A DNA stretch of 48,123 nucleotides. Source: Gemmatimonadota bacterium. GTDB lineage: Bacteria; Gemmatimonadota; Gemmatimonadetes; Gemmatimonadales; Gemmatimonadaceae. The position numbers and the translations under genes are program-made. The stretch covers positions 1 through 48,123 of the forward strand of contig JAHFCU010000014.1 of NCBI GenBank assembly GCA_023249305.1, in the 5' to 3' direction. Below are positions 9,083 through 32,575 of this stretch, in pieces. The notes below the pieces were generated by a model. That model was not told the DNA's origin and searched no databases. It was given only the letters and a program-made list of their open reading frames with translations. Positions within the stretch are counted from its first letter, which is position 1, and each line of letters starts with the position of its first letter.

Positions 9083-9814
9083 ATGGTTACGGCCCCCGTG
9101 CACCAATCGTTCTTGTCTCGGATTCCTGCATTCCCGAACGCCTTCGTAACGACCATGCGACGCTTCCTGCATAGACTCCCGCGCCTCACCGTGCCGCTGG
9201 CGATTGCGCTCATCACCGCCTGCGCACGCCAAGTACCCGTTGTTCTGGCGCCGTTGCCGGACCGTCCGTGGACGGTGCTCCCCGGCGATCAGGTGAAGGT
9301 TCGCGTGTATCGCGAGCCCGACTTGGGCGGCCAGTACATCGTCAACGGCAAGGGCGAGGTGTTCATTCCCGGCATCGGCCGCATCATGGCGGCGGGGATG
9401 ACGGCCGATTCGCTGTCAGCAGCCATCACGAGCGGGTTCACCCGCCGTATCATCGACGCCATCGTTGATGTGGGCATCGTTCGCTCCTTGCCGGTGTTGG
9501 GGCAGGTGAAGGCTCCGGGCGTCTATGACGCCGAGCCGACCATGTCGGTGCAGCAGATCGTCGCCAAGGCGGGCGGCATTCGTGGCGCGTCGCTCGAGAT
9601 GCCGACATTCCTGCTGCAGAAGGGTCGCGATGGCACTCGGTATTCCTTGGCGGCCGATTTGCGCCTCGACCGCGTGGCCCTCGACGAAGGGGACGCCATC
9701 GTCGTGATGGATCCGTCGTTCCAGGAGCGATGGGCGCCATGGATCTCCACGTTCAACCAGTTCGCCTCCGGAATCTCGATCTTCCTCAGTATCCTCCTGC
9801 TCTCGAAGAAATAG
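9083..9814 (+). CDS. Polysaccharide export outer-membrane lipoprotein (OPX, Wza-like)
   Basis: This 243-residue OPX protein should form the outer export channel. The lipobox is ITAC with Cys47, after the hydrophobic stretch LTVPLAIAL. The Poly_export domain follows with LPGDQVKVRVYREPDLGG, then an SLBB-like domain carrying VLGQVKAPGVYD and IVAKAGGIRG. The C-terminus ends in a hydrophobic helix (FASGISIFLSILLLSKK) that could be the outer-membrane-spanning helix. It is much shorter than E. coli Wza (about 380 residues), with one SLBB-like domain visible. The ATG at 9083 directly follows the previous stop and has AAGGGGG upstream. The ATG at 9155 would give a more compact lipoprotein signal peptide. 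It is followed immediately by the Wzc-type kinase, its usual partner. Confidence 0.9.
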   Translation: MVTAPVHQSFLSRIPAFPNAFVTTMRRFLHRLPRLTVPLAIALITACARQVPVVLAPLPDRPWTVLPGDQVKVRVYREPDLGGQYIVNGKGEVFIPGIGRIMAAGMTADSLSAAITSGFTRRIIDAIVDVGIVRSLPVLGQVKAPGVYDAEPTMSVQQIVAKAGGIRGASLEMPTFLLQKGRDGTRYSLAADLRLDRVALDEGDAIVVMDPSFQERWAPWISTFNQFASGISIFLSILLLSKK

Positions 9815-9817
9815 CCC

Positions 9818-12178
9818 GTGGAACAGCTGCCTATCCTCGCCGATCCGGGCGACGCGAATCAGGAAATTGACCTTCGGCGCGCGTGGCAGACGGTCGCGCG
9901 CAGCGCGTGGATCATCGTTATCTGCATCGGCCTCGCCGCCGCGGCCGCCATGCTGGCCGTGCGGCGCATTGATCCGGTGTTCACCGCGTCCACCACGGTG
10001 CGCATCGAGGAGAAGCCGAGCGGTGGCGCGTTCGGGATGTTCGCGCCGGACTACACCAACGTCCTCGCGACGGCGACGCAGATCTTGACCAGCCGTCAAC
10101 TGGCGTACGACGTCGTCGACTCGCTGGGCATGCGGCTCAGTATCTACCAGCCGGTGCGCCGACTCAAGAGCGAGGTGGTGCGTGCGGCGCACGTGAACGC
10201 CAATGCCCCATCGCAGGCCTACCGGCTGGACCGAATCGGGCGTGGCATGCGCGAAGTGCGGCTGCTCCCAAGTGAGAAGGTCCTCGGCGCCTTCCCCGAC
10301 TCGATGCCGATTCCGATCGAGGGGGGCTGGATCCAGCTGGCGGGGGGAGCGACGCGGTATGATCGGCTGGTCTTCACGGTCTATCCGCGCAACGACGTCG
10401 CCTCCGCGCTGCGCGACGCAGTCCGCGTGTCGCAGCCCAGCCGCGAGGCGAACGTGTTGCGCCTCTCGTACACCGGCAAGGATCCGGCCGAGGCGATGCA
10501 GGTGCCGAATGTGCTGGCGCGGGCGTATGTGCAGCGTCGCATTGATCTCGCGGCGAGCGGCGCGCGGTCCACGGTGAGCTACCTACAGCGTCAGGTCGCC
10601 GTGGTGAATGATCAGCTTGCAGAGCAGGAGCGGGCGGTTCGCGACTACCTGCTGGCGCGGGGTGTGTCGAGCATTGACGGAAGGATCCAGGACCTCGTTT
10701 CGGAAATGGACCTCCTCCGCGGCAACCTGACGACGATCACGCTCGAACGTGATGCAATTGCGCGTGCCATCGCCCCGCTGCGCGACAAGGGCCCGAACGG
10801 TGCGGACGAGTTCCTGCGCCGTGCGATGGCGACGCCCGAGTTCCTCGGCATCGCCGCCTCTGAGGTAACGCTGCTGCAGTCGCTCCGCACTGAACGTGAC
10901 GGCCTACTGCAGCGCCGCACCACTGACGATCCGGACGTGCGCTCGGTGACGTCGCGAATGGAGGTGGTGCAGGAGCGCATTCAGGACCGTGCGGCGGCTT
11001 TCCTGAGCCAGCGCAGCTCGCTGGTTGAGGACCGCGAGCGGCGCGTAGACTCGCTGCAGCGGCTGCTCGCGCGGATGCCGGAGGAGGCGATGGGATTCCA
11101 GCGCCTTGAGCGGGACCGCGCGGTGTCGCAGCAGACGCTGGAACTGGTGCAGAGCCGGCTGAAGGAGGCGGAGATCTCAGCCTCGGTGCCGGACTCGTCG
11201 GCGTCGGTGCTCGACGAGGCCGTCGGGGCGGACCAGCAGGCGAACTCGTCGCAAACATTGATCTTCGCCGTCGCGATATTTTCGGGCCTGCTCGTGGGCG
11301 TCGGTGTCGCGTTCCTGCGCGACTGGCTGGACACGACGATTCATGACGAAGCCGACCTGCGCTCCATCGTCGGCGTGCCGGTGGTGGGTATCATTCCCAA
11401 CCTGCAGCAGCAGGCGCGCTCCGGGGCGTACCGCCTGCCGCCGCCGCCCGATGCGGACGGTGCGCGCGAGCGGACGGCGGCAAGCGGCGCGGCCCCGGGG
11501 TCGTCGCGCGACTACCACACGCCGGCGGCCGAGGCGTACCGCGCGCTCCGCACCAACCTCAACTATCTGACGCCACCGCGGGCGCCGCGCGTCATCGTCG
11601 TGACCAGTGCCCTGCCGGGCGACGGCAAGACAACGACGGTGGTGAACCTCGCCATCACGCTGGCGCAGCAGGGACAACGCGTCATCCTCATCGACGCGGA
11701 AACCCGGCGCGGCACCGTGCACGAAGCGTTCGGCATTCCGCCCGCCCCCGGCTTCTTCGACCTAATGTACGGCCAGGCGTCGCCGGGCGAGTGCATCCGG
11801 CGCGTCTCCATGGAAACGGGCGGGTCGGTGGACGTCCTGCCCCTCGGCAGTTCGCCCAGCGTGAATCCGGCGGACCTGCTCGTCGCCACGCGACTGCAGC
11901 CGCTGTTTGATCGACTGCGGCAGCAATACGACTATGTGCTCCTCGACACGCCGCCGTTGAACCTCTTCACGGACGCCGCGCTGATCGCCACCAATGCGGA
12001 TGCGCTGTTGTTGGTAGCGCGGTCCGACAAGACCGACCGCGAGGAGCTGCGGTTCGCCGTGTCGCAGCTGCGAAACGTGAAGGTGGTGCTGGCGGGCGCC
12101 GTGCTCAACGACGTGGAACTGCGCCGCGGCTCGCGCTATCGGCAGGGGTACGGCTACTATTACGAATACGGCAGATAG
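9818..12178 (+). CDS. wzc: Wzc-type polysaccharide co-polymerase with BY-kinase domain
   Basis: This 786-residue inner-membrane protein fuses a Wzz chain-length domain to a bacterial tyrosine kinase. TM1 is near residues 28-46, followed by a large periplasmic region with long helices and the conserved PDSSASVLDEA segment. TM2 lies near residues 484-503. The cytoplasmic kinase carries the AEAYRALRTNL activation segment, Walker A LPGDGKTTT (K604), Walker A' VILIDAETRR and Walker B YVLLDTPP (D710). The tail is tyrosine-rich (six Tyr in the last 14 residues), the usual autophosphorylation cluster. The start is a GTG 3 nt after the OPX stop. Wzz and kinase in one chain is the arrangement usual in Proteobacteria, here paired with a PHP phosphatase best known from Firmicutes. 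Confidence 0.94.
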   Translation: MEQLPILADPGDANQEIDLRRAWQTVARSAWIIVICIGLAAAAAMLAVRRIDPVFTASTTVRIEEKPSGGAFGMFAPDYTNVLATATQILTSRQLAYDVVDSLGMRLSIYQPVRRLKSEVVRAAHVNANAPSQAYRLDRIGRGMREVRLLPSEKVLGAFPDSMPIPIEGGWIQLAGGATRYDRLVFTVYPRNDVASALRDAVRVSQPSREANVLRLSYTGKDPAEAMQVPNVLARAYVQRRIDLAASGARSTVSYLQRQVAVVNDQLAEQERAVRDYLLARGVSSIDGRIQDLVSEMDLLRGNLTTITLERDAIARAIAPLRDKGPNGADEFLRRAMATPEFLGIAASEVTLLQSLRTERDGLLQRRTTDDPDVRSVTSRMEVVQERIQDRAAAFLSQRSSLVEDRERRVDSLQRLLARMPEEAMGFQRLERDRAVSQQTLELVQSRLKEAEISASVPDSSASVLDEAVGADQQANSSQTLIFAVAIFSGLLVGVGVAFLRDWLDTTIHDEADLRSIVGVPVVGIIPNLQQQARSGAYRLPPPPDADGARERTAASGAAPGSSRDYHTPAAEAYRALRTNLNYLTPPRAPRVIVVTSALPGDGKTTTVVNLAITLAQQGQRVILIDAETRRGTVHEAFGIPPAPGFFDLMYGQASPGECIRRVSMETGGSVDVLPLGSSPSVNPADLLVATRLQPLFDRLRQQYDYVLLDTPPLNLFTDAALIATNADALLLVARSDKTDREELRFAVSQLRNVKVVLAGAVLNDVELRRGSRYRQGYGYYYEYGR

Positions 12179-12193
12179 GACAACGAACCGCAC

Positions 12194-12841
12194 GTGCCCA
12201 TGGCCAGACACGCAGAACACGAATCCGAACATCCCGAGCTGGTTCCTGACATCTTCGACACGGGGACCGAGCGGTTGCCGTCGTCGGGGCAGTTCAGCGC
12301 GGCCACGATCTCGGGCGTGCTGCTCGCGATCACCGAGGCGCTCGTCGCACCGCTCATTTTCGGGAGCACGGTCGTGGTCTCGGTGCTTACGTGGTGGATC
12401 CTCGACGCACCGTGGGCGGGCCGCCGCCGGCGGTCGTCGCGCGCCACACGCAGGTGGTACCTGCCGGCGCCGCGCGTCGTCTACCTGAGCACCCTCATGC
12501 TGGTCGGGCTCTGGCTGGCGACGATGTTCGTCTTCCGCGCGAGCGATCCGCAGCTCAGTCCGGGCTTCAGCGCCACGCTCCCGAACGTCATGGGCTTGGA
12601 TGTCTCCGTGCTCTCTAAGATCAACGGTATGCAGGGGCCGATTGACACGGGGCCGAGTCTGCAGCGGATGACGGATTCAGGCATCGCGCCGTTCTCCCTT
12701 TTCGCGCACGGCACGGCGTCGACCATCGCGGTGGCCCTGCTCGCGTACGCATTTCAGGCGGCGCGCCGCCGCATCCGGCGGGTGCGCCGGTTCCGGGATG
12801 GGGAGGGGCATCGCGCGCGGCACTCGGGTGCTGCGCATTAG
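12194..12841 (+). CDS. Unknown membrane protein between wzc and the polymerase gene
   Basis: I do not recognise this 215-residue protein. It has an acidic N-terminal stretch (about residues 8-33), a long hydrophobic region (about 36-72), a second transmembrane helix (about 95-114, YLSTLMLVGLWLATMFVF), a loop of about 55 residues, a third helix (about 165-185), and a basic C-terminus rich in RRR. Three membrane spans with a mid-sized loop are predicted by eye. The start is GTG at 12194, with ATG at 12200 as alternative. It sits 15 nt after wzc and 12 nt before the polymerase-like gene, so it is very likely co-expressed with the assembly machinery. It is too small and has too few helices to be a Wzx flippase. 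Confidence 0.8.
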   Translation: MPMARHAEHESEHPELVPDIFDTGTERLPSSGQFSAATISGVLLAITEALVAPLIFGSTVVVSVLTWWILDAPWAGRRRRSSRATRRWYLPAPRVVYLSTLMLVGLWLATMFVFRASDPQLSPGFSATLPNVMGLDVSVLSKINGMQGPIDTGPSLQRMTDSGIAPFSLFAHGTASTIAVALLAYAFQAARRRIRRVRRFRDGEGHRARHSGAAH

Positions 12842-12853
12842 TCACCCGGGCGT

Positions 12854-14341
12854 GTGATGGAAGCCACAGCGATCCGCCCGCTACTGGCACCCGCCGGGCG
12901 GCGTGGTACGCGAACGTCGCTGTCCACGGTGGCGTTCGGCCTGTTCATCGCCGTCACGATCTTCGGCCTTGCCGGCGTCGGCGGCAGCATCTTCCCACTG
13001 TTCTTCGTCGCGGCCGCCACGGTCGCCGCAGTTGTCGCGTACTATCGCGAGCCGCAGCGCTACGTGGCGTTCGTGTTTGCGATGTGGTTCTTCACGCCAT
13101 TTGTCCGCCGCGTCGTGGACTACCATCACGGGTTCAGGCCGGCGAGCTTCGTGCTCGCGGCGCCGACGATTGTCACGCTGGTCGCGGTGCTCACGCTGTT
13201 CTACCGGGCGCGCGAACTCCGCGGCGCGATGTTGTATCCGTTCACGTTCATTCTGGCCGGGATCGCCTATGGGTACTTCATCGGCGTCCTGAAGGTCGGC
13301 GCGTTTCCGGCCACGTACGCGCTGCTGACCTGGCTGGGACCGGTGAGCTTCGCCATGCATTTGAACCTCAACTGGCGAATGTTCCCTGCGTTGCGCAAGT
13401 CATTTCTTGACTTTCTGCAGTGGGCGCTGCCGGTGCTTGGCGCGTACGGTCTCTATCAGGTGATCGCCCTCCCGGCATGGGATCGCTACTGGATGGAGGC
13501 CGCGAATGTCGCGTCCATCGGCCTTCCCGTTCGATTCGGATTTCGCGCGTTCGGTACGATGAACTCTCCGGGGCCGTACGCGGTCACGCTGATGACCGGA
13601 ATCCTCTTCCTGCTCGGTACGGCGCGACGCGGGATGGTACTCACGTTACCGCTGGCGCTGCTAAGCCTGTTGCTGACCCGCACGCGATCGGGTTGGGTGG
13701 CGCTGGTGATCGGCCTATTCATCATCCAGTTCATGGGGCCGCTGCGCCGGATGGCGCGCAACTGGTTCTTCTTGGCGTTGATGGCCGCGGTTGCTGTGCC
13801 GGTGCTGTCGCTCGACGTCTTCCGCGAATCCATCACGCAGCGAATCTCCTCCTTCGCCTCTCTGCACAAAGACAACTCGGTCCGGAGCCGCCTGATGCTG
13901 TCCGACCTCGCTACGCAAGCCATCGGCGTACGCGCCGAGGGTGAAGGGCTCGGGTCGACCGGCAGCGGCACGAAGCTCGCGGGCGGCGTCGAACGCCAGG
14001 CGTCGATTGACAATGGGTTCCTCGAGATCTTCTATGTCTTGGGCTGGCCGGGCGGCTCCCTGCTGCTGCTGGGTCTCATTGGACAGCTGCTGACACTGGC
14101 GCGATTCCGCGACTCGCGCGAGGATCCCTTCGCGAATGCCTCCCGGGCCGTGTTCTGGTCCTTCCTGAGCGTCTTGCTCATCGGCGACATCTTCAGCGGC
14201 AGTTCGGGGACGATGTTCTGGGGGACGTACGGTTTCGCATGCTGCGCGCACGCGTACAACTATGCGACCGGCAAAGGCCTGCGCTCGCGACAGCTCGCTC
14301 GCGACTTTCAAGCGCAGGCGCTGACTCCCGCGTCGGGGTAG
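12854..14341 (+). CDS. O-antigen ligase/polymerase-like membrane protein (Wzy/WaaL superfamily)
   Basis: This 495-residue integral membrane protein has about ten to twelve hydrophobic helices. The central part has the superfamily pattern: a loop with FRAFGTMNSPGPYAVTLMTG followed by LLLTRTRSGWVALVIGL, corresponding to the conserved R..G...P and TxSRxgw-type motifs of O-antigen ligase/Wzy proteins. A large periplasmic loop follows (about residues 325-390), then more helices. From its place after wzc it is most likely the repeat-unit polymerase (Wzy); sequence alone does not exclude ligase activity. The start could be GTG at 12854 or the adjacent ATG at 12857. Confidence 0.85.
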   Translation: MMEATAIRPLLAPAGRRGTRTSLSTVAFGLFIAVTIFGLAGVGGSIFPLFFVAAATVAAVVAYYREPQRYVAFVFAMWFFTPFVRRVVDYHHGFRPASFVLAAPTIVTLVAVLTLFYRARELRGAMLYPFTFILAGIAYGYFIGVLKVGAFPATYALLTWLGPVSFAMHLNLNWRMFPALRKSFLDFLQWALPVLGAYGLYQVIALPAWDRYWMEAANVASIGLPVRFGFRAFGTMNSPGPYAVTLMTGILFLLGTARRGMVLTLPLALLSLLLTRTRSGWVALVIGLFIIQFMGPLRRMARNWFFLALMAAVAVPVLSLDVFRESITQRISSFASLHKDNSVRSRLMLSDLATQAIGVRAEGEGLGSTGSGTKLAGGVERQASIDNGFLEIFYVLGWPGGSLLLLGLIGQLLTLARFRDSREDPFANASRAVFWSFLSVLLIGDIFSGSSGTMFWGTYGFACCAHAYNYATGKGLRSRQLARDFQAQALTPASG

Positions 14342-14433
14342 CGGATGCGCGCGGCGAGGGCACGCCACGGGCGCGGGTCGCTGCGTCTCGCGGAGATGCC
14401 CGGCCCGGCGTCCGGCACGTGCGGAGCGAGGGT

Positions 14434-15273
14434 ATGAGCGAGTCGTCAATCGATCGCGCGATCGCGCAGAACATCGCGGCGTACGATGCCGTGGCGTCCA
14501 GGTACGACGCGACGCATCCGGAGATCTTCAACCCCGTCGAGCAGGAGCGGCTGGCGCGCGCGGTGCGCGACGTGTTGGTCGCCGCTGACCACCAGACCGA
14601 CCGGCCGGTGCGGGTGCTCGACGTCGGCGCAGGCACGGGCAATTTGACGGCGCACTTTCTCGCGGCGGGTGCGGTGGTGGTATCAGCGGATGTCTCCCCG
14701 ATCTGCCTCCATGCCACGGCGGAGCGATTCGGCGCCACCGGACGGCATCAGGTGCAGCAGATTGACGGCCGCTCGCTCGGCGTGTTTGCCGACGGATCGT
14801 TCGACGTGGCTGCCTGCTATTCCGTGCTGCACCACGTGCCCGATTACCTGGCCCTGATTGCCGAGATGGCGCGCGTCGTTCGCCAGGGTGGCCTCGTATA
14901 CATTGACCACGAACGCCATGATGCCTCGTGGACCGATCAGGCGCGCGAACAGTTCATGTTGGAGGCATGGGTCTTTCCGCCGAGAGTCTGGACTCGCTTC
15001 CTCAGGCCGCGCAATTACTGGAATCGCGTGCGGCCGCTGCTGCAGTGGCAGCGCTGGTTCAACCGCCGCTGGATGCCGGAAGGCGACCTGCACATCTGGC
15101 CCGACGATCATATCGAGTGGACACGCGTTGAGGCTTGCGCACGAGCGCACGGCGTGGTGGCGCTCATCGTCAGCGATTACCTGCTGTGCGATGCCTCCCT
15201 TGATCGTGGCGTGTGGGAGCGGTGGAAGGACCGCATGACAGATCACCGTCTCTGGGTGGGGCGCAAGGCATGA
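14434..15273 (+). CDS. Class I SAM-dependent methyltransferase
   Basis: This 279-residue methyltransferase carries motif I VLDVGAGTGNLTAHFL (about residues 68-83), motif II VVSADVSP, and the post-motif SFDVAACYSVLHHV. Its C-terminal half is rich in Trp and aromatic residues (MPEGDLHIWPDDHIEW), unlike simple Methyltransf_11 proteins, and is probably acceptor-specific. The open frame extends into the polymerase gene; the ATG at 14434 has GGAGCGAGG just upstream, and YDAVASRYD follows soon after, so this start is preferred. In this operon it probably methylates a sugar or a lipid-linked glycan. Its stop overlaps the next start (ATGA). Confidence 0.88.
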   Translation: MSESSIDRAIAQNIAAYDAVASRYDATHPEIFNPVEQERLARAVRDVLVAADHQTDRPVRVLDVGAGTGNLTAHFLAAGAVVVSADVSPICLHATAERFGATGRHQVQQIDGRSLGVFADGSFDVAACYSVLHHVPDYLALIAEMARVVRQGGLVYIDHERHDASWTDQAREQFMLEAWVFPPRVWTRFLRPRNYWNRVRPLLQWQRWFNRRWMPEGDLHIWPDDHIEWTRVEACARAHGVVALIVSDYLLCDASLDRGVWERWKDRMTDHRLWVGRKA

Positions 15274-16424
15274 CGCCCGGCGAGGCCATGATTCGCATCG
15301 CCCTGCCGTGCACTGGGCTTGGTCACCAACACCGCGGCTTCGAGCGCTTCACTCGCGAACTCCATGCTGCCGTGCGGAACGCGACCGGCATCACGCTATC
15401 CGTCTATGGCGGCGGGGGCGAGATGCAGGCCGACGAGCGCGCTATCTGGAATCTCCCGCGTGCGTCCACGGCGGCAGGAGCGTTGTCCCGCGTTGTCGGA
15501 TGGGATCGGTATTTCATCGAGCAGGCGAGCTACTTCGCCGGATTCCTGCCGCACCTGCTCGCCTGGCGGCCGCATCTGGTCTACTTCTCCGACCTGAACC
15601 TCGGCAATGCCTGCTGGCACTGGCGGCGTATCACCGGTCAGCGATTCCGCCTGCTCTTCTACAACGGCGGCGCGACGACGCAGCCTTTCACGCGGTGCGA
15701 CTGGGTGCAGCAGACGACGCCAGAGCACTTCGACGCTGCCCGAACGCGCGGCGAGTCGGCGAACCGGATGTTCGTGCTGCCGCACGGCGTGCAGACGCCG
15801 CCGGTCCTCGCCGCACGCGAGGCGGTGCGCATCGCCGCCACACGGCGCGTATTTGGCGTGCCGGAGGGACGGGAGTTGCTGCTGAGCGTCGGCATGCTCG
15901 ACTGCTCCATCAAGCGTATGGACTCACTCATCGAGGCGGTGGCCGCCCTGGGCCCGGAGCGTCCCTACCTGGTGTTGCTTGGACAAGAAACGGATGAAAC
16001 GCCGCGGGTCCGCGCGCGTGCACGGGAACTCCTGGCTGACGGTTGGTGGATGGGGACGTGGCCGGCCGATCGAATGGTGCAGGCGTATGAGGCGGCCGAT
16101 GCCTTCGCGTTGTTATCGCTGCGCGAGGGATTCGGACTTGCCTACGCGGAAGCCCTCGCGGCAGGGTTGCCGTGCGTGGCGCACGAGTCGCCGGGCACCA
16201 GGTACATCTTCGGCAACCACGCCTTCCTGGGTGACACGCGCGATGTGGCGACGGTTGTCGCGCTGATTCGGCGTGCGCTCAGTGCATCATCCGCTGAGGC
16301 ACCGCGACTCGCACGGCACCAGCACGTCCGCAGACAGTTCGGCTGGGACGCACTTTCGCCGCGCTATGCGGAGATGCTGCGTGCATGCGCCACAGGCCGG
16401 CGGCCCGCATGGAGTGACACATGA
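15270..16424 (+). CDS. Family 4 glycosyltransferase
   Basis: This 384-residue GT-B enzyme should transfer a sugar from a nucleotide donor to the growing lipid-linked glycan on the cytoplasmic face. The acceptor-binding half includes GLGHQHRGFERF near the N-terminus. The donor domain starts near LLLSVGMLDCSIKRMDSLIEA and contains the E(x7)E motif EGFGLAYAE followed by ALAAGLPCVAHESPG. The start is the ATG at 15270, overlapping the methyltransferase stop; an ATG at 15288 begins the first strand and is possible. A 4-nt overlap links it to the following GT2 gene. The sugar is unknown. Confidence 0.9.
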   Translation: MTPGEAMIRIALPCTGLGHQHRGFERFTRELHAAVRNATGITLSVYGGGGEMQADERAIWNLPRASTAAGALSRVVGWDRYFIEQASYFAGFLPHLLAWRPHLVYFSDLNLGNACWHWRRITGQRFRLLFYNGGATTQPFTRCDWVQQTTPEHFDAARTRGESANRMFVLPHGVQTPPVLAAREAVRIAATRRVFGVPEGRELLLSVGMLDCSIKRMDSLIEAVAALGPERPYLVLLGQETDETPRVRARARELLADGWWMGTWPADRMVQAYEAADAFALLSLREGFGLAYAEALAAGLPCVAHESPGTRYIFGNHAFLGDTRDVATVVALIRRALSASSAEAPRLARHQHVRRQFGWDALSPRYAEMLRACATGRRPAWSDT

Positions 16425-17281
16425 AGGGTGCGCCCGAGTGGTCGGTCGTGGTGCCCACGCGGAACCGTCGGCGCGAGCTAACCGCCTGCCTCGCGGTGCT
16501 TGCGCCCGGCGCGCAGACGATGGACGCCGTGCGCTACGAAGTCATCGTCACAGACGATGGTGATTTCGAGGCAACGGATGCGTGGCTGCGCGTCGAGTTC
16601 TCGTGGGCACGACACGTGCGCGGCCCGCGGCGCGGGCCGGCGGCCAACCGCAACGTCGGCGCGCGCGCGGCGCACGGCACGTGGCTCGTCTTCGCCGACG
16701 ACGACATCGTACCATCGCCCGGTTGGATTGCCGCGTTCGCCGATGCCGACGGCCGCGGGGACGTGCTCGAAGGGCAGACGATGTGCGCGGCCGGATTACG
16801 GTCGCCGCGCTGCCATGCACCGGAGAATCGGACGGGCGGCGTGCTCTGGTCCTGCAACTTCGCGGTGCGCCGTACGGCGTTTGTCTCCATCGCCGGATTC
16901 GATGAAGGGTTCGTCTTTCCGCACATGGAGGATGCAGATCTGCGCGAACGACTACGCGCCGCCGGCCACGCGATCACCTGGGTTCCCGAGGCGCGAGTGG
17001 ACCATCCACCACGACGGCTGCCCTCGGGAACGCGGATGGGTGCGTATCGGGAAGCGGAAGTGCGCTATCTGTACAAGTACAGCGCGCCGCGCCCGGTGCA
17101 CTGGCGACTCATCCGAAACATCACGTTGAGCCGGCTCGTGAACATTCGCACCATGCCCAAGGGAATCGACTCCGTGCTCGCGCTCTGGGCGCTGGGCGCC
17201 GAAGTGTGGCACGTGGTGCGGCACGGCGCGGCGTGGGAGCGCGCCTATGCGCGGGAGTTTCCAGTGGAGCCGCGCACGTGA
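16421..17281 (+). CDS. Family 2 glycosyltransferase
   Basis: This 286-residue GT-A enzyme begins with SVVVPTRNRRRELTACL, the classic GT2 N-terminus. The nucleotide/metal-binding DDD is in WLVFADDDIVPSPGW (about residues 87-101). Downstream GGVLWSCNFAVRR and GFDEGFVFPHMEDADLRERL correspond to the acceptor loop and the ED catalytic motif. The C-terminal segment, with ITLSRLVNIRTMPKG, is soluble or peripheral. It overlaps its neighbours by 4 nt on both sides (ATGA before, GTGA after), placing it firmly within the glycan-assembly operon. Donor and acceptor cannot be inferred. Confidence 0.9.
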   Translation: MKGAPEWSVVVPTRNRRRELTACLAVLAPGAQTMDAVRYEVIVTDDGDFEATDAWLRVEFSWARHVRGPRRGPAANRNVGARAAHGTWLVFADDDIVPSPGWIAAFADADGRGDVLEGQTMCAAGLRSPRCHAPENRTGGVLWSCNFAVRRTAFVSIAGFDEGFVFPHMEDADLRERLRAAGHAITWVPEARVDHPPRRLPSGTRMGAYREAEVRYLYKYSAPRPVHWRLIRNITLSRLVNIRTMPKGIDSVLALWALGAEVWHVVRHGAAWERAYAREFPVEPRT

Positions 17282-18237
17282 CGGTGTGGGTGAGCGTGCT
17301 GGTGCCGAGCTACCGGCGCCCGGACTCACTGGCGCGCTGCCTTGCGGCGCTCGGCGCGCAAACGCAGGTGCCCAACGAAGTGATCGTCGGCGTCCGCGCA
17401 GACGACGCCGAGACCATGGGTGTGGTGGAGGCAGCGTACGCCGCCGGGCTGCCCGTGCGTATCGCGACCACATCGACGCCGGGAGTGGTGGCGTCAATGC
17501 AAGCCGCGCTCGACGCGGCCACGGGTGACGTCATCGCGTTGACCGACGATGATGCGCGGCCGTTCCCCACGTGGATCGCTGGACTGCTCGCGCATTTTAC
17601 CTCCGCGACCGACGTGGGCGGCGTGGGCGGCAGGGATTGGCAGCCCCACGAGCGCTGGGACGAACGCCGCGTTGGCGTGGTCCAGTGGTTCGGTCGTGTG
17701 GTTGGCAATCATCATCTAGGCGCCGGACCGGCGCGTACGGTGGACGTGCTCAAGGGTGCGAATTGCTCGTTTCGCGCGCCGTTGCTGCGTGCGGTTGGGT
17801 TCGACGACCGGCTCCTCGGGGCAGGGGCGCAGATGTACTGGGAACTCGGCGTCTGCCTGCCGCTGCGCCGGGCGGGATGGCGCCTGATCTACGACCCGGC
17901 GGTTGCCGTAGATCATGACGTAGCCCCGCGGCACGGCGACGATCATCTGCATCGAGGTGTGTTTGCGGCACCGCCGCTGCGTGAAGCCGTGCACAACGAA
18001 ACGCTCGAGTTGCTCGACGCCCGAGGGTTTCTCTCCCGCTGGGTGTTCATGTCGTGGGCGCTGTTGGTGGGGACGCCCGAGGGACCAGGCCTCGTGCAGC
18101 TCGTGCGGCGCGCGCTGAGAGGCGACTCGACGGCGACGGCCCGTTGGCGCGCTGCGCTCGCGGGGAGGCTGGCGGGATGGGCCACCGCACGCCGCGTCCC
18201 ACGGCGACTGGCAGTGCCATCGCCACCGACACGATGA
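17278..18237 (+). CDS. Family 2 glycosyltransferase
   Basis: This 319-residue GT2 enzyme starts at a GTG that overlaps the preceding stop (GTGA). The first strand follows at once: VSVLVPSYRRPDSLARCL. The DXD-type motif is ALTDDDARPFPTW, followed by the acceptor region with VLKGANCSFRAPLLR and GFDDRLLGAGAQMYWELGV, where the catalytic acidic residue is less canonical than the usual ED. The C-terminus has a hydrophobic helix (WVFMSWALLVG) that could give membrane association. It is a distinct family member from the preceding GT2, so the two probably add different sugars. Confidence 0.89.
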   Translation: MTVWVSVLVPSYRRPDSLARCLAALGAQTQVPNEVIVGVRADDAETMGVVEAAYAAGLPVRIATTSTPGVVASMQAALDAATGDVIALTDDDARPFPTWIAGLLAHFTSATDVGGVGGRDWQPHERWDERRVGVVQWFGRVVGNHHLGAGPARTVDVLKGANCSFRAPLLRAVGFDDRLLGAGAQMYWELGVCLPLRRAGWRLIYDPAVAVDHDVAPRHGDDHLHRGVFAAPPLREAVHNETLELLDARGFLSRWVFMSWALLVGTPEGPGLVQLVRRALRGDSTATARWRAALAGRLAGWATARRVPRRLAVPSPPTR

Positions 18238-18286: not shown

Positions 18287-19408
18287 ATGAGCTTCTCGCT
18301 CGCATTCATCGCGCACCAAGTGCATCGACACGGCGGACAGGAGCGGGCCGCGGCCGAGGTGCTTACGCGCATTGCGCAGCGCGTGCCGGTGACCGTCATC
18401 GCGTCGCGGTGCGATCTCCCGGGCGCGCCCGTGACGTGGAGCCGCGTCGCGCCGGCGCCGCGGCCCCTGGCCGTGGGATCGTATGTGTTCGCCCACGCCG
18501 CGCGCGTGGCTGAGCGGCGCGCGGGCTGCACGTTGACCAACAGCATCGGCGCCGCGGCGTTCGACGCCGACGTCATCACGGCGCAGTACTGCCACGCGGC
18601 ATTCACGGCGCGGTTCGGCGGTCTTCGTGGCGGCGGCGCGCTGGGCCGCATGTGGCAGCGCACGGCCCAGCAGGTGTTCGTCCATCAGGAGCGGAGCGCC
18701 TATCGCGCGGCGCGATTGCGGCGTGTGATCGCGGTCTCGCGCGGCACTGCACGCGAACTGCACGAATACTACGGCGTTCCCGAGCAGCGTATCGCGGTCG
18801 TGCCGAATGGCGTAGATCACTCGGTGTTCAGCCCGGCGGCCGACGCGAACGCGAAGCGCGCGTTGCGCACGTCACTCGGCGTGAGGGCCGACGCGTTCGT
18901 TGTGCTCTTCTGCGGCGGCGACTGGGAGCGCAAGGGCCTGCGCGATGCGATCGACGCGATTGCCGGCCTCTCCGACACGTTGCTCTGCGTGGTGGGGCAG
19001 GGCGATGCCGCGCCGATGCAAGCGTATGCCGCCCAGCGGAACGCCGGTGCGCAGGTGCGCTTCGTGGGGGAGACGATGACGCCGGAGCAGTGGTACGCCG
19101 CCGCCGATGTTCTGATGCACCCCTCGCGCTATGAGGCCTTCTCGCTCGTAACGCTCGAAGCCGCGGCATCGGGGCTGCCGGTCATCACGCACGCGCTCAA
19201 CGGCACGGAAGAACTCATTGAGTCGGGCGTGAACGGCTTCCTCACGCCATTCGGGGGAGAGGCGCTGCGCGTGCCGCTGCTCGCCCTGCGCGACGACACG
19301 ACGCGGCGCGCGGCGATGTCAGCAGCCGCCCTCGAGCGTTCGCGCCGGTATGCCTGGGACCGTGTGGCCGCCGAGTACTTCGACGTGCTGACGGAGGCGG
19401 CGTCATGA
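18287..19408 (+). CDS. Family 4 glycosyltransferase
   Basis: This 373-residue GT-B enzyme starts at an ATG preceded by GGAG. The N-terminal Rossmann-like half begins LAFIAHQVHRHGGQERAAAE, the glycine-rich acceptor loop typical of GT4. Between the domains it has AVSRGTARELHEYYGVP and AVVPNGVDHSVFSP, a strong GT4 hinge signature. The donor half includes VLFCGGDWERKGL, EQWYAAADVLMHPSRYEAFSLV (with E(x7)E motif EAFSLVTLE) and ASGLPVITHALNGTEE. A 49-nt spacer separates it from the previous GT2. It sits 20 nt before the AsnB-GT4 fusion gene. Confidence 0.91.
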   Translation: MSFSLAFIAHQVHRHGGQERAAAEVLTRIAQRVPVTVIASRCDLPGAPVTWSRVAPAPRPLAVGSYVFAHAARVAERRAGCTLTNSIGAAAFDADVITAQYCHAAFTARFGGLRGGGALGRMWQRTAQQVFVHQERSAYRAARLRRVIAVSRGTARELHEYYGVPEQRIAVVPNGVDHSVFSPAADANAKRALRTSLGVRADAFVVLFCGGDWERKGLRDAIDAIAGLSDTLLCVVGQGDAAPMQAYAAQRNAGAQVRFVGETMTPEQWYAAADVLMHPSRYEAFSLVTLEAAASGLPVITHALNGTEELIESGVNGFLTPFGGEALRVPLLALRDDTTRRAAMSAAALERSRRYAWDRVAAEYFDVLTEAAS

Positions 19409-19428: not shown

Positions 19429-22400
19429 ATGTGCGCCATCTGCGGCCTAGTGCGTCCGGGCGCCGGACAGGAGCGCTCGCGCATCGAGGCTGCAATGTCG
19501 TGCATGGTGCATCGTGGGCCGGATGACGGCGGCGTCTGGCTAGGCGACGGCATTTGCCTTGGCGCGCGGCGCCTTGCGATACAGGACCTCTCCCCCGCCG
19601 GGCATCAGCCGATGGTGAGCGAGGACGCGCGGCACGTCATCGTCTTCAACGGCGAGATCTACAATTTCACGCGCCTGCGTGCCGCGCTCGACCATGGCGC
19701 GCACTTCCGCGGACACTCCGATACTGAAGTGCTGCTGCATGCCGTGCAGGCGTGGGGATTCGATGAGACAGTCCGGCGCGCGCACGGCCAGTTCGCACTC
19801 GCCGTGTGGGACAGCGATTGCCGCATCCTGCGCGCGGCGCGCGACCGTGCGGGCAAGAAACCGTTCTTCTACGCGCACGACGGCGGGTCACTTGCGTTTG
19901 CCTCGACGCTCAACGCGCTGCTTGAGCTGCTGCCGAGGCGGCCAGAGGTCAACCCGCTCGCCATCGACGCATTCCTCACCTATCAGGCCGTGCCCGCGCC
20001 GATGTCGGTGTGGCACGGCGTGAAATCGCTGCCTCCTGCGCACTGGCTCACGTTTGACGCGAACACCGGCGCGTGCCGCGTGGAGCGGTACTGGGATGTC
20101 TCGTACGCCACGAAGACGTCAATGGACGAGCGGGAGGTGCTCGCCGAGGTCGAGCGTATCGTGCGCCGCGCCGTGGACGATCGGCTCGTCGCCGACCGCA
20201 CCGTCGGCGTCTTCCTCTCGGGCGGCGTGGACTCGTCGCTCATCACGGCACTTGCGGCGCAGTCGGCGCGTACACCGGTTGAGGCCGTCTCGGTCGGTTT
20301 CGACGATCCAGAGTTCGATGAGCGACCGTTCGCCCGTCGCGTAGCCCAGCATCTTGGAGTGCGCCTGCACGAGCGACTCCTGCGTCCGGACGTCGTGAAT
20401 GACCTGCCGGGCATCATCTGGCACTATGGGCAGCCGCTCGCCGACGTCTCTATCGTGCCGAGTCACGACCTGTCGCGCATCGCGCGCGACGTCATGGTCG
20501 TCGCCCTCAATGGAGACGGTGGCGACGAACTGTTCGGAGGATACACGCGCCCGATGGTGGCCCGGGCTGCCAGCATCTACCGCCGCGCCCTCCCGCAGTC
20601 GTTCCGCCGGCTCGCGGATGCGGCGCTGCGCGGGCAAGAGATGGGGCCGCTGAAGCGCGCCATGCTGCTGGCGCGCGCCGGACGTGCCGACGCGCGCGAG
20701 ACGTTCACCTACGATCGCGGGTTTCGCAAGCTTCGGGCGGCGGCGTATTCTCCCACGCTGCTCGCAGCCGTTGGCTCCGTCGATCCAGATGCGATGTACC
20801 GCGACGTATGGGCGCGGGCGGACGGCGTCGATGACGCTGACCGCGCGCTCTACGGCGATTTCTGCACGTATTTCCCAGACCAACTGTTGGCCAAGGCCGA
20901 CGTTGCCTCCATGGCGCACTCGCTCGAGGCGAGGTCACCGCTGCTCGACACTGAGTTGATCGAGTTCGGGGCCACGATTCCGACCGCCCTTCGCCTTCGA
21001 GGCTGGGAAACGAAGCACTTACTCAAGCGGCTGGCCGCGCAGTTCGTGCCGCGCGACGTGCTGTATCGGCGCAAGCGCGGCTTTGTGATCCCAGCCTCAC
21101 GCTGGCTGCGTGGCGCGCTGGCACCGTACGTCCGCGCCGCGCTCGACAGCCCGTCGTTCCACGATCGCGGATGGGTGCAACCCGCGTTCACGCGGCGGCT
21201 GCTCGACGAACATCATCGGTGCGTCCACGACTGGGGCGAGCAACTCTTCACGCTGCTCGTGCTCGAACTCTGGGCGCGCCTTGCGCTGGACGGCTCACTG
21301 CATCGTGACGATTCGCTCGAGGTGCTGCGCGCCGGCGGTGCGGGCGGTGCGGGCGGTGCGGGCGGTGCGGTGCGGGGCGCGCCGCGCGTCTCCATGCACA
21401 CAGTGCAGGTCGGCATGGAATGGTTCGACGAGAAGCCAGGCGGGTTGAACCGAGTCTTCCACGAACTCGTGCGCCACCTCCCAGGCGCCGGCGTGGAGGT
21501 GCGCGGGCTCGTCGCGGGCAGTGAGCAGGTGTTGTCGCACTCGGGCGGCCGAGTGCGCGGCGTGGCATCGCACACCGCCGCCTTACCGCGGCGCCTCCTC
21601 CAGTTGCGCGCTGAGGCGCGGACGCTGCTGCGGGACGATCCGGACGCGATCGTCGTCGCCCACTTCGCGCTCTACGCCGCGCCGCTGCTTGGCCTGCTGC
21701 GCGACCGGCACCGTCGCTTCGTCTTCCATTTCCACGGACCGTGGGCGCAGGAAACGGCGGCCGAACGAGTGCACGGCCTGCAAACGTACCTCAAGGGCGG
21801 CGTCGAACGCGCAGTCTACTTGCGCGCCGATGCGTGCATCGTGCTCTCGAGCGCATTCGGGCGCATCCTGCACGACTCATTCGGCGTGCCGTGGGAGAAG
21901 ATCCATGTTGTCCCCGGCGGAGTGGACTGCGACCGCTTCGCCATCACCGCTACGCGCGCCGAATGTCGGACCCGGCTCGGCTGGCCCACGGATCGCCGCA
22001 TCGTGCTCGCGGTGCGCCGGCTCACGCGCCGCATGGGACTCAGCCAACTGGTCGCCGCCGCCAGCCTGCTGCGCGACCGTGTGCCGGACGTGCTCGTGCT
22101 CATCGCCGGCCAGGGACCGTTGGAGGACGAACTGCGCACACTGATCCGGCGCGCCGGGCTGGACGAGCACTGCCGGCTCGTTGGCTTTGTCAGCGAGGAG
22201 AGCCTGCCAGAGGCGTATCGCGCTGCGGATCTCACGGTCGTGCCGTCGGTCGCGCTCGAAGGCTACGGTCTGGTCGTTCCTGAATCGCTCGCTGTCGGCA
22301 CGCCGGTGCTCGTCACCCCGGTTGGCGGCCTGCCGGAGACGCTGGAGGGATTCGCGCCGCAACTCGTGCTCGCGGAGGCCTCGGCGCCGGCGATTGCCCA

Positions 22401-22539
22401 CGGACTGGGCGATGCGCTGACCGGACAAGTGCCGTTGCCGTCCGCCGAGGCGTGCCGTGCGTATGCGCGGCAGCAGAACGACTGGCCCGTGATCGCCGAG
22501 CAGGTGCGGCGCGTGTACGCGGGAGTGCGGCAGCCATGA
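19429..22539 (+). CDS. Asparagine synthase (glutamine-hydrolysing)-like protein fused to a family 4 glycosyltransferase
   Basis: This continuous 1036-codon frame encodes two complete enzymes. Residues 1 to about 628 are AsnB-like: Cys2 of MCAICGL is the class II glutamine amidotransferase nucleophile, VFNGEIYNF and HSDTEVLLH follow, and the synthetase domain has the PPi loop SGGVDSS (264-270) and NGDGGDELFGGY. A linker of four perfect GGA triplets (636-647) leads to a GT4 domain (about 655-1036) starting HTVQVGMEWFDEKPGG. That domain has VVPGGVDCDRF, AVRRLTRRMG and the E(x7)E motif EGYGLVVPE. AsnB homologues in polysaccharide loci may amidate carboxyl groups of sugars. The fusion suggests amidation and glycosyl transfer are coupled, which is inference. 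Met656 (21394) could be a relic or alternative internal start. The stop overlaps the next GT by 4 nt. Confidence 0.9.
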   Translation: MCAICGLVRPGAGQERSRIEAAMSCMVHRGPDDGGVWLGDGICLGARRLAIQDLSPAGHQPMVSEDARHVIVFNGEIYNFTRLRAALDHGAHFRGHSDTEVLLHAVQAWGFDETVRRAHGQFALAVWDSDCRILRAARDRAGKKPFFYAHDGGSLAFASTLNALLELLPRRPEVNPLAIDAFLTYQAVPAPMSVWHGVKSLPPAHWLTFDANTGACRVERYWDVSYATKTSMDEREVLAEVERIVRRAVDDRLVADRTVGVFLSGGVDSSLITALAAQSARTPVEAVSVGFDDPEFDERPFARRVAQHLGVRLHERLLRPDVVNDLPGIIWHYGQPLADVSIVPSHDLSRIARDVMVVALNGDGGDELFGGYTRPMVARAASIYRRALPQSFRRLADAALRGQEMGPLKRAMLLARAGRADARETFTYDRGFRKLRAAAYSPTLLAAVGSVDPDAMYRDVWARADGVDDADRALYGDFCTYFPDQLLAKADVASMAHSLEARSPLLDTELIEFGATIPTALRLRGWETKHLLKRLAAQFVPRDVLYRRKRGFVIPASRWLRGALAPYVRAALDSPSFHDRGWVQPAFTRRLLDEHHRCVHDWGEQLFTLLVLELWARLALDGSLHRDDSLEVLRAGGAGGAGGAGGAVRGAPRVSMHTVQVGMEWFDEKPGGLNRVFHELVRHLPGAGVEVRGLVAGSEQVLSHSGGRVRGVASHTAALPRRLLQLRAEARTLLRDDPDAIVVAHFALYAAPLLGLLRDRHRRFVFHFHGPWAQETAAERVHGLQTYLKGGVERAVYLRADACIVLSSAFGRILHDSFGVPWEKIHVVPGGVDCDRFAITATRAECRTRLGWPTDRRIVLAVRRLTRRMGLSQLVAAASLLRDRVPDVLVLIAGQGPLEDELRTLIRRAGLDEHCRLVGFVSEESLPEAYRAADLTVVPSVALEGYGLVVPESLAVGTPVLVTPVGGLPETLEGFAPQLVLAEASAPAIAHGLGDALTGQVPLPSAEACRAYARQQNDWPVIAEQVRRVYAGVRQP
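21334..21369 (+). repeat. Four perfect 9-bp tandem repeats encoding the GGA linker
   Basis: GGCGGTGCG is repeated four times without change and in frame, encoding (Gly-Gly-Ala)x4 exactly between the AsnB and GT4 domains. Because the unit is 9 bp, slippage would change linker length in three-residue steps without breaking the frame. Confidence 0.95.
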
Positions 22540-23687
22540 CCGCGCGTGTGCTTGCGCTCGATCACGTGGGCGTCATGGGTGGCGCCGAACTCTCGATGCT
22601 CGACATCATCGCCGGCCTCGGTGCCGACGCCACCGTGCGGCTCTTCGCCGACGGGCCGTTTCGTGAGGCGCTCGAGCGACGGGGCGTGGACGTGCGCGTG
22701 TTGCCAATGGGTGCGCTCGGCGACGTGCGACGGGAGAGCCGTGGATTATCACCGTTCGCCGCGCTGGCTGCTTGGCGGCTCGCGGGTGTCGTGGCACGCG
22801 AGGCTGCGCCGGCACGGCTGATCTACGCGAACTCGCAGAAGGCTTTTATCGTGGCGGCGCTTGCCGCACGGCGCGCCGCGCGCCCGGTGGTCTGGCACCT
22901 TCGCGACCTGCTTGGACCGCCGCACTTCAGCGCGCTCAACACGCGGGCGGCGGTCACGCTGGCCAACTGGCGAGCGGCGCGCGTGATCACCAACTCACAA
23001 GCAACGGCTGACGCGTTCGTGGCGTCGGGCGGCGAGCGCCGCCTCGTGCGTGTCGTGTACAACGGCGTGGACGCCGCGCCCTTCGACACGATCACCAACG
23101 AGGCAGCCTTGGCGATACGCGTCGAATGCGCACCAGGCGCGGCGTTCATCATGTCTGTTTTCGGGCGGCTGCATGAGTGGAAGGGCCAGCAAGTCGCGAT
23201 TGATGCGCTCTCGCAGCTGCCTGCTGATTGTCATCTGTGCGTTGTCGGCGCACCGTTGTTCGGCGAGCGCGAGTTTGAAGCGGGTCTGCGCGCGCAGACC
23301 GAGCGCCTTGGCGTAGCCGCCCGCGTGCATTTCCTTGGCTTTCGCAGCGATGTCGCGGCATTGATGCGCGCGACGGACGTGATCGTGCATGCGTCAGCGT
23401 TGCCGGAGCCCTTTGGGCGCGTTGTGGTCGAGGGCATGCTTGCGCGACGGCCCGTCGTTGCCACGGGAGCGGGCGGCGTGCGCGAGATCATCAGCGATGG
23501 CGAGACTGGAGTGCTCGTGCCGCCGGGCGATGCTGCGGCGATCGCCCGGGCGGTGGCGGCGCTGCGCGCCGATCCAATGCGCGCCTCGGCGATCGCGCAA
23601 GCTGGCGCGACGCGCGCGCGCCGGGTGTTCGGGGTGGATGCGATGGTACGCGGCGTGCGCGCCGTACTCGACGAGGTCATCGGATGA
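22536..23687 (+). CDS. Family 4 glycosyltransferase
   Basis: This 383-residue GT-B enzyme starts at an ATG overlapping the stop of the fusion gene (ATGA). The longer open frame lies inside that gene and is not GT-like. The N-terminus VLALDHVGVMGGAELSML is a GT4 acceptor loop. The central portion has VWHLRDLLGPPHFS and a hinge with RVVYNGVDAAPF. The donor domain carries SVFGRLHEWKGQQVAIDAL, DVIVHASALPEPFGRVVVEG (E(x7)E motif EPFGRVVVE) and GVREIISDGETGVLVPPGD. It overlaps the following GT4 gene by 4 nt. Confidence 0.91.
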   Translation: MTARVLALDHVGVMGGAELSMLDIIAGLGADATVRLFADGPFREALERRGVDVRVLPMGALGDVRRESRGLSPFAALAAWRLAGVVAREAAPARLIYANSQKAFIVAALAARRAARPVVWHLRDLLGPPHFSALNTRAAVTLANWRAARVITNSQATADAFVASGGERRLVRVVYNGVDAAPFDTITNEAALAIRVECAPGAAFIMSVFGRLHEWKGQQVAIDALSQLPADCHLCVVGAPLFGEREFEAGLRAQTERLGVAARVHFLGFRSDVAALMRATDVIVHASALPEPFGRVVVEGMLARRPVVATGAGGVREIISDGETGVLVPPGDAAAIARAVAALRADPMRASAIAQAGATRARRVFGVDAMVRGVRAVLDEVIG

Positions 23688-24772
23688 TGCGCGTCGCGAT
23701 CGTGCATGACTATCTGAACCAGATGGGTGGTGCCGAGCGTGTTGTCGAGAGCTTCCATCGACTGTGGCCCTCGGCCCCGATCTTCACGACCCTCGCCGAC
23801 CGGGACGCCATGCCAGCGTCGCTGCGCGGCGCGGACATCCGCGTGTCGTGGATGCAACATCTTCCAGGGTGGCGCCGCCACTTCCGCGCGTACCTGCCGT
23901 TCTATCCGCTTGCCATCGAAAGTTTCGACCTGCGCGGCTACGACCTGATCATCTCAAGTAGCAGCGCGTGGGCCAAGGCAGCGCGTACGCCGGCCGGCGC
24001 GGTGCACGTCTGCTATTGTCACACGCCGATGCGTTGGGTGTGGGACTACGATCACTACGTGGCGCGCGAGGGATTCGGGCCGCTCACGCGACTCGCGTTA
24101 CCGCCGCTGATCGAGGTGCTTCGGCGATGGGACGTGCGCACCTCGCAGCAGCCGACGCACCTAGTCGTGAACTCTCGGGTGGTGCAGGAGCGCGTGCAGC
24201 GCTGCTGGGGACGCGCCAGCGAACTGCTTCATCCGCCGGTGGAAACCGGGCGATTCGCCGTGGGAACGGGCGAGGGACGGGCGCATCTCGTCGTGGCGCG
24301 CCTTGCGCACTACAAGCGGATCGACCTAGCCGTCGCCGCTTTCAACCAGCTTGGCCGGCCGCTGGAGATCATCGGCGACGGCCCGGCGCGCCGCTCGCTG
24401 GAAGCGATGGCCGGGCCGACGATCACATTCCGCGGCCGTGTGGACGACGCGCTCGTGGCGCGGGCGATGCAAGAATGCCGTGCGCTGATCTTCCCGGGTG
24501 AGGAGGACTTTGGCATCACTCCTCTCGAGGCGAACGCGAGCGGCCGCCCGGTGATCGCTTACCGTGCGGGCGGTGCCACCGAGACCGTACACGACGGCGT
24601 CACCGGCGTGCTGTTCGCCGAGCAGATGCCGGCCGCGCTCGCCGACGCGGTGCGCCGTGCCGAATCCATCGCCTGGGATGCGGCGACGATCCGCCGACAC
24701 GCGGAATCACATTCCGTGGCGAACTTCGAGGCACAGTTCCGCGACATCGTTGAGCGCGCCGTCCATCGCTAG
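23684..24772 (+). CDS. Family 4 glycosyltransferase (WbaZ-like branch)
   Basis: This 362-residue GT4 enzyme is the last gene of the long plus-strand operon. It starts MMRVAIVHDYLNQMGGAERVVE, and the middle has CYCHTPMRWVWDYDHY, both typical of the WbaZ-like mannosyl/rhamnosyl-transferase branch. The donor half includes VVARLAHYKRIDLAVAAF, IIGDGPARRSLE, and the E(x7)E motif EDFGITPLE followed by GRPVIAYRAGGATE. The start overlaps the previous stop by 4 nt. It ends 22 nt from a convergent gene; I see no strong terminator hairpin in that gap. Confidence 0.91.
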   Translation: MMRVAIVHDYLNQMGGAERVVESFHRLWPSAPIFTTLADRDAMPASLRGADIRVSWMQHLPGWRRHFRAYLPFYPLAIESFDLRGYDLIISSSSAWAKAARTPAGAVHVCYCHTPMRWVWDYDHYVAREGFGPLTRLALPPLIEVLRRWDVRTSQQPTHLVVNSRVVQERVQRCWGRASELLHPPVETGRFAVGTGEGRAHLVVARLAHYKRIDLAVAAFNQLGRPLEIIGDGPARRSLEAMAGPTITFRGRVDDALVARAMQECRALIFPGEEDFGITPLEANASGRPVIAYRAGGATETVHDGVTGVLFAEQMPAALADAVRRAESIAWDAATIRRHAESHSVANFEAQFRDIVERAVHR

Positions 24773-26646: not shown

Positions 26647-26667
26647 GCGGCTTCGGCTCCAAGGTGA

Positions 26668-32436: not shown

Positions 32437-32575
32437 CGCCAGGGACGTGCGTTCAGGACGTGGTACGTGCGAATGCCCGCGGCGAAAGATGCCATGCCGT
32501 TGGCGTGGTGGCGAGGCAGGAGGCGCCGTTAGACTTCACTCGTACGCTCCGCCCCGCCTGCCGAGGATCGTTCCG

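Follow-up and report, generated by a model that had tools for sequence, protein, structure and literature searches.

Background

The closest described relatives of the protein considered here are amidotransferases of bacterial surface-glycan synthesis, for which we drew on excerpts of the papers cited. Uronamide sugars occur in bacterial surface glycans. In Porphyromonas gingivalis, the uronamide is lost upon deletion of PGN_1234, which is related to WbpS and WbqG, both members of the family TIGR03108; in the excerpted text the position of WbpS in the pathway is described as not known, and the stage of WbpS-type amidation is open at least for this species (PMC7468200). According to the discussion section of PMC6025236, a wbpS mutant of Helicobacter pullorum carries unextended HexNAc-HexNAcA (N-acetylhexosamine and its uronic acid). 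In Rubrivivax, wbpS is flanked on each side by a group 1 glycosyltransferase gene, and its mutant has an altered colony form (PMC3684757). The Sphingomonas promonan locus holds an exosortase-associated amidotransferase alongside a dehydrogenase, a pyridoxal phosphate-dependent aminotransferase, a WxcM acetyltransferase, an MviM dehydrogenase and a family 4 glycosyltransferase (GT4) (PMC11340318). Here we describe a gene in which an amidotransferase of the asparagine synthase type (AsnB) and a GT4 are fused. It lies at positions 19429-22539 (+) of a 48,123-nucleotide stretch of a Gemmatimonadota genome (contig JAHFCU010000014.1), referred to as the window.

No description of an AsnB-glycosyltransferase fusion was found among the literature matches listed, with subscription journals and preprints outside their scope. 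A preliminary description of the window had likewise known of no such fusion. That statement agrees with the matches listed, although sequenced genomes contain the fusion repeatedly. The enzymes themselves are known; their recurring joining is apparently undescribed.

Results

A single gene encodes both enzymes

The gene is a single open reading frame (ORF) without internal stop. Its 1036-residue product comprises a glutamine amidotransferase/asparagine-synthase half (residues 1-617) and a GT4 half (about 657-1036), with active-site motifs in each. The Pfam domains GATase_7 (47-165), Asn_synthase (241-617), Glyco_transf_4 (670-836, 85.1 bits) and Glycos_transf_1 (845-1015, 114.6 bits) all scored above their cut-offs. 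The class II glutaminase and asparagine-synthase domains fall inside residues 31-617 and the two-domain GT4 inside 670-1015. Re-reading of the sequence bore out the coordinates, the length and the motifs Cys2, SGGVDSS and EGYGLVVPE of the preliminary description.

Both halves were confidently predicted in an AlphaFold2 model (mean predicted local distance difference test, pLDDT, 89.5), and residues 638-653 were disordered. Foldseek matched the AsnB half of the model to TsnB9, E. coli AsnB, human ASNS and beta-lactam synthetase, and the GT half to MshA, HepE, BshA, PimB' and others.

The fusion is conserved in Gemmatimonadaceae

We surveyed 395 genomes, a sample of the phylum Gemmatimonadota, at a strict threshold of 1e-120. 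The whole fusion (query residue 1 to at least 1031) was present in one stop-free frame in 16 of these, the window's own genome included, and in a 17th (G005) residues 399-1035 run across the junction in an open frame. These 17 genomes represent four genera of Gemmatimonadaceae (g1, g19, g45 and g46). N-terminal fragments in G003, G005 (contig C18) and G006 stop short of the junction and are uninformative on the join. The preliminary description had proposed a search for the same domain order and would have given up the fusion had all homologues been two separate genes; a single open frame in 17 of 395 genomes answers both points. Since the junction is spanned in one open frame in 17 genomes of four genera, the fusion is real and not an assembly slip. 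Two same-genus fusion proteins are identical to those of a Gemmatimonas sp. metagenome-assembled genome (MAG; L038) and a Gemmatimonadetes MAG (L039).

The Gly-Gly-Ala linker that had been noted between the halves is present in the window, encoded by a tandem repeat (Table 1), but it is not a general feature. The array was confined to the window's species and was missing at the other 16 fusion junctions. In the window's genus, five further members with a read junction carry a single short GG..R element; the linkers of the remaining 11 fusions are likewise array-less, with DRDARMDDFLRKPERARRTTLRTLQLGMEWF among those of other genera. A frame slip via the repeat was ruled out, because gain or loss of whole 9-bp units cannot shift the frame. 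When four pairs were compared by codon position, third positions differed 2.2 to 5.3 times as often as first and second positions in both halves. This bias was weaker in the linker (28-30 codons), indicating that the linker itself is under little constraint. The window contains further tandem repeats whose unit lengths are divisible by three, at 43541-43602 (18 bp x2.6) and 30794-30836 (15 bp x2.9).

The AsnB half resembles WbpS-type amidotransferases

The best NCBIfam match of the AsnB half was TIGR03108 (511.2 bits, residues 1-615). As this score lies under the curated cut-off of 816.9, we do not class the protein in that family. The asparagine synthase model TIGR01536 matched above its cut-off (413.9 bits versus 267.1). 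The half did not qualify as a true asparagine synthetase B: PRK09431 gave 230 bits against a cut-off of 499, and ADVSIVPS and GDGGDE stand in place of TIRAS and GEG.DE. The residues of these regions (ADVSIVPS and NGDGGDE in the fusion) presumably bear on the amino-acid substrate of AsnB. A different AsnB of the window genome (567 aa, contig C37) has the loop DITTIRASTP and SGEGADE, as in E. coli AsnB.

The features of class II glutamine amidotransferases are all present, namely a Cys beside the initiator Met, NGE and a PP loop. Among 16 aligned Gemmatimonadaceae fusions, Cys2, NGE and the Lys aligned with the E. coli AsnB Lys are kept in every one. The PP loop reads SGGVDSS in 15 and SGGVDSG in one, GDGGDE (within NGDGGDE) occurs in 15 with GYGGDE in the remaining protein, and the ADVSIVP loop occurs in at least 10. 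The best reading of these sequences is that the AsnB half would work like an XrtA/PEP-CTERM (WbpS-type) amidotransferase of TIGR03108.

In the GT4 half, the EX7E motif expected of GT4 enzymes was found in at least 13 of the 16 aligned fusions. With regard to donor specificity, no listed NCBIfam glycosyltransferase model came near its cut-off, and the PDB sequence relatives, PimA among them, are mixed.

The GT4 half also occurs beside AsnB and without it

Orthologues of the GT4 half (GTf) were found in 24 of the 395 genomes: fused in 17, with an adjacent AsnB in three and without AsnB in four. The three with adjacent genes belong to genus g13 (G022, G348 and G368; loci L153, L154 and L155). There, AsnB, GTf and the downstream GT4 gene GT4c are separate and their order is kept, with an ATGA overlap between the AsnB stop and an ATG. 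The GT homology of L155 starts some 65 codons past this ATG. A small frame change at the overlap would fuse AsnB and GTf, and the reverse would equally split them. The glutaminase motif reads NGA instead of NGE in two of these three unfused AsnB proteins. An Armatimonadaceae locus (L040) also has AsnB, GTf and GT4c unfused in the same order. Its AsnB frame (L040:8001-9900) is broken near the C-terminus, and the tail, in another frame, hits a stop right at the GTf start, which reflects either a MAG error or a decaying gene.

The AsnB-less loci are those of g23 (three genomes; L179, L180 and L181), arranged GT4b-GTf-GT4c, where GT4b is the upstream GT4 gene, and of g8 (one genome; L182), where a WbaP-like gene is followed by GTf, GT4c and GT4d. 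In L179-L182, the window AsnB half was not one of the two best matches (at 1e-5) of any ORF of at least 150 aa. An obligatory AsnB-GTf pairing was rejected on account of these four of 24 genomes. In the GT tree, the fused g46 protein forms the deepest Gemmatimonadaceae branch, and the AsnB-less g8 and g23 proteins are nested inside with moderate support (91/79 and 92/88). From these positions the pairing looks old, and AsnB appears either to have disappeared from g8 and g23 or to have been acquired repeatedly.

Related fusions occur in other phyla

We scanned genome contigs with the whole fusion and collected the best 80 of at least 593 matches; C-terminal partners of AsnB were sought within the collected loci. 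Among these 80 loci were four AsnB-GT4 fusions and 14 with a GT4-like ORF next downstream (BLAST rule). Those with AsnB-GT4 in a single frame outside Gemmatimonadota were L041 and the Elusimicrobiota locus L042. In the AsnB tree, unfused proteins separate the AsnB halves of these two from the Gemmatimonadaceae clade. The well-supported branches require at least three changes between fused and adjacent, each of which could be a gain or a loss; support is weak at the deepest branches. A single origin of all AsnB-GT4 fusions is not favoured, and the fusions of Gemmatimonadaceae and Elusimicrobiota appear to be convergent, to judge from the tree. Among the GT4s of the searched set, only the GTf orthologues and L040 come closer to GTf than the GT halves of L041 and L042. 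Retrieval of the loci with the whole fusion may have produced this closeness by selection bias, or an AsnB half may have been swapped within an older fusion.

L042 belongs to genome G396, and in the phylum of this genome 44 of 294 genomes had a match at 1e-140. In nine of the 44, the match to the query covers both halves and reaches at least residue 1005. A tenth, G655, has an AsnB-GT4 protein (L205:3249-7661, +, 1470 aa) with roughly 480 extra residues in which no Pfam family was found at 1e-6. In 15 further Elusimicrobiota-group genomes, AsnB is followed by 360-383 residues of a different kind, in proteins of about 975-998 aa (L193-L203, L206, L207, L208 and L210). This tail is a family 9 glycosyltransferase (GT9, the heptosyltransferase family) by Pfam in the six of 15 tested and by BLAST to one of those in three more; the remaining six were assigned solely from a similar start, ILLVN[ML]AGLGD. 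Downstream of its AsnB-GT9 gene, G426 has a GT4 as a gene of its own, 63% identical to the GT4 fused in L042. Another partner was found in Pseudomonas cedrina (L088:8001-11258, +), where an AsnB-type amidotransferase is fused to a UDP-sugar dehydrogenase with PF03721, PF00984 and PF03720 all present. The best equivalog match of this dehydrogenase was TviB, at 519 bits and below the cut-off of 592.

The fusion lies in a polysaccharide locus

The genes around the fusion are listed in Table 1. The order GT4b-[AsnB-GTf]-GT4c is conserved among the 14 fused regions read, with the g46 region as the exception for GT4b, which has a weak match there. Downstream of the fusion are two GT4 genes and, on the opposite strand, a glycosyltransferase family 2 (GT2) gene. 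ORFs at 25879-26691 (-) and 32234-33073 (+) had no Pfam matches; their homologues are found repeatedly close to the AsnB-GT4 locus in g19 and to the AsnB-less locus in g23. An ATP-binding cassette (ABC) transporter pair at 39223-41275 (-) consists of an ATPase with a Wzt C-terminal domain and an ABC-2 membrane protein, and its homologues lie near the fusion in several g19 genomes.

Table 1. Features of the fusion gene and its locus; residue numbers are those of the fusion protein.
Feature	Position	Strand	Basis
AsnB-GT4 fusion gene, 1036 aa	19429..22539	+	ORF list; orthologues with an uninterrupted frame
Class II glutaminase domain, residues 1-165; Cys2 at 19432-19434, NGE 74-76	19429..19923	+	Pfam GATase_7/GATase_6; Cys2 and NGE in 16/16 aligned Gemmatimonadaceae fusions
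AsnB-type synthetase domain, residues 241-617; PP loop SGGVDSS 264-270, GDGGDE 362-367, Lys549	20149..21279	+	Pfam Asn_synthase 297.7 bits; motifs
9-bp tandem repeat GGCGGTGCG x5, coding for the Gly-Gly-Ala linker; model pLDDT < 50 at residues 638-653 (21340-21387)	21334..21379	+	Repeat scan, model; array missing in other 16 fusions
GT4 (GT-B) glycosyltransferase half, about residues 657-1036; EX7E E944 and E952 at 22258-22284	21397..22536	+	Pfam; sequence relatives in the PDB such as PimA; fold matches such as MshA
Polyprenyl glycosylphosphotransferase (initiating transferase family)	7541..9082	+	NCBIfam TIGR03025 308.4 bits, above cut-off 295.55
Wza-like export protein, Wzc-like chain-length/kinase protein, one more ORF, Wzy_C (O-antigen ligase family) protein	9083..14341	+	
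Methyltransferase, GT4 and two GT2 genes, same locus	14239..18237	+	
Upstream GT4 gene GT4b	18287..19408	+	Identity at least 57% in 13/14 fused regions read
Downstream GT4 gene GT4c; start may be near 22533	22452..23687	+	Present in 14/14 fused regions read
GT4 gene GT4d	23684..24772	+	

Genes for a possible sugar supply were found elsewhere in the window genome, which encodes WbpA/WlbA/WbpE/WbpD-like proteins. The best PDB matches on contig C71 were to an oxidoreductase (3q2k, 428.7 bits), a lipopolysaccharide acetyltransferase (3mqg, 239.6 bits), the aminotransferase WbpE (3nyu, 279.1 bits) and Cap5O (3ojl, 237.8 bits); a second nucleotide-sugar dehydrogenase was found in addition to the Cap5O-like one. 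We take 3q2k to be WlbA and 3mqg to be WlbB. As read from these matches, a diacetamido-uronate route is a plausible assignment for the C71 genes.

Discussion

One conserved gene joins an amidotransferase and a glycosyltransferase, with both folds seen in a predicted model and the catalytic motifs conserved, in a locus of polysaccharide synthesis, and such fusions recur. In our judgement, its product is probably a bifunctional enzyme of a Wza/Wzc/Wzy-type surface or exopolysaccharide locus, in which a WbpS-like uronate amidotransferase is coupled to a GT4. The N-terminal half would use ammonia from glutamine, together with ATP, to convert the C6 carboxylate of a hexuronic acid to the uronamide, as in WbpS-type enzymes. 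Our best guess for the substrate is a 2-acetamido- or 2,3-diacetamido-uronate, either as the UDP-sugar or just placed on the lipid-linked chain. The C-terminal half would move that sugar, or the next one, onto the lipid-linked chain. By holding two consecutive steps together, the fusion could ensure that mostly amidated residues are incorporated and extended. The substrate, the order of the two steps and the benefit of the fusion are what we infer here.

The preliminary description had proposed that amidation is coupled to glycosyl transfer. Of the readings considered, this one is the best supported, because the fusion is conserved, AsnB-GT4 and AsnB-GT9 counterparts occur in Elusimicrobiota, homologous AsnB is fused to a UDP-sugar dehydrogenase and the described relatives make uronamides. 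It is likely that uronamide formation is tied to a glycosyl-transfer step, although the coupling is not obligatory. Several observations weigh against our interpretation. GTf lacks AsnB in four of the 24 genomes that bear it, so amidation is not essential to the transfer. The AsnB half remains under the TIGR03108 cut-off, and the AsnB of the Pseudomonas fusion sits on another branch of the AsnB tree. The predicted template modelling score of the AlphaFold2 model (pTM 0.66) leaves the placing of the halves relative to each other uncertain, and therefore no channel between them can be claimed. The search for a UDP-sugar dehydrogenase gave two hits, both on C71 and none on the window's contig. 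The results section of PMC6025236 prints HexNAcAN for the wbpS mutant, in conflict with its own discussion. Finally, two of the four C71 genes were searched for in 49 selected family genomes (18 with the fusion or long fragments, three with adjacent genes and 28 others, including G006 with its 137-residue N-terminal fragment). WlbA-like genes occurred in 46 and UDP-HexNAc-dehydrogenase-like genes in 47 of the 49, fusion or not. These Wbp-like genes are thus permissive evidence that does not discriminate, and a substrate link by co-occurrence was rejected.

We also considered whether the fusion might be neutral, that is, whether genes overlapping at ATGA were joined by a small frame change that brought co-translation and equal dosage with no functional coupling. 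The genes overlap unfused in the three g13 genomes, the linker is disordered, variable in length and weakly constrained, and AsnB is missing beside GTf in four genomes, all as such an origin would allow. However, AsnB has been joined to GT4, GT9 and UDP-sugar dehydrogenase in several phyla, and 17 of the 20 Gemmatimonadota genomes with AsnB beside GTf have the two fused; we regard a neutral fusion as unlikely, though still to be taken seriously. More improbable is that the AsnB half amidates another target, or attaches some amine or amino acid, in place of ammonia, to the sugar or another carrier. Its superfamily does take in beta-lactam synthetase and the hydroxyamidotransferase TsnB9, both of them fold matches, and the ADVSIVP loop is unlike that of true AsnB. 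Yet Cys2, NGE and the PP loop are retained, as expected for glutamine-derived ammonia, and the nearest described relatives make uronamides in the excerpts of PMC7468200 and PMC6025236.

That the AsnB half is a true asparagine synthetase, present in a glycan locus by chance, is very improbable. The TIGR01536 score would permit it, but the PRK09431 score falls far short, the locus is full of glycosyltransferases and the genome's other AsnB has the classical TIRAS and GEGADE that the fusion lacks. An assembly or sequencing artefact joining two genes has next to no probability. The junction does carry a repeat, and the draft assembly is 78.56% complete in 83 contigs, but 16 other Gemmatimonadota genomes have an open frame across the junction, and none of them has the array.

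Beyond the coupled uronate amidotransferase and GT4 that we favour for this gene, a wider proposal is possible though doubtful. WbpS-like amidotransferases repeatedly joined to glycosyltransferases of unlike families (GT4 and GT9) in at least two phyla may form a bifunctional class that amidates and transfers. They would have been joined because amidation works in cis on the just-transferred lipid-linked residue, a checkpoint through which only amidated chains pass to extension. If so, the polymer of g8 and g23, which have GTf and no AsnB part, would be a related one with the acid in place of the amide. The fusions with GT4, GT9 and UDP-sugar dehydrogenase, together with the loci missing the AsnB part alone, make the position of amidation testable with one protein and its halves.

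Compared with known systems, the AsnB half is like WbpS, WbqG and PGN_1234 of TIGR03108 (eps_aminotran_1) in its AsnB-type fold, length, best NCBIfam match and glycan locus; in the excerpted accounts those are separate genes, whereas the window protein is under the family cut-off and fused to a GT4. With asparagine synthetase B (1ct9; human ASNS, 6gq3) it shares the class II glutaminase and synthetase fold, but it is without the TIRAS and GEG.DE motifs and has an extra GT4 half. The GT4 half has GT-B fold matches and EX7E in common with PimA, MshA and BshA, and differs from them in being fused to an amidotransferase and in forming its own GT4 clade. In the Sphingomonas promonan locus, an amidotransferase is again listed near dehydrogenase, aminotransferase, acetyltransferase and GT4 genes, but as separate genes in the excerpt of PMC11340318. 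In Pseudomonas cedrina L088, AsnB is likewise N-terminal and, at 582.6 bits to TIGR03108, likewise below the cut-off, but its partner is a dehydrogenase and its AsnB comes from another branch.

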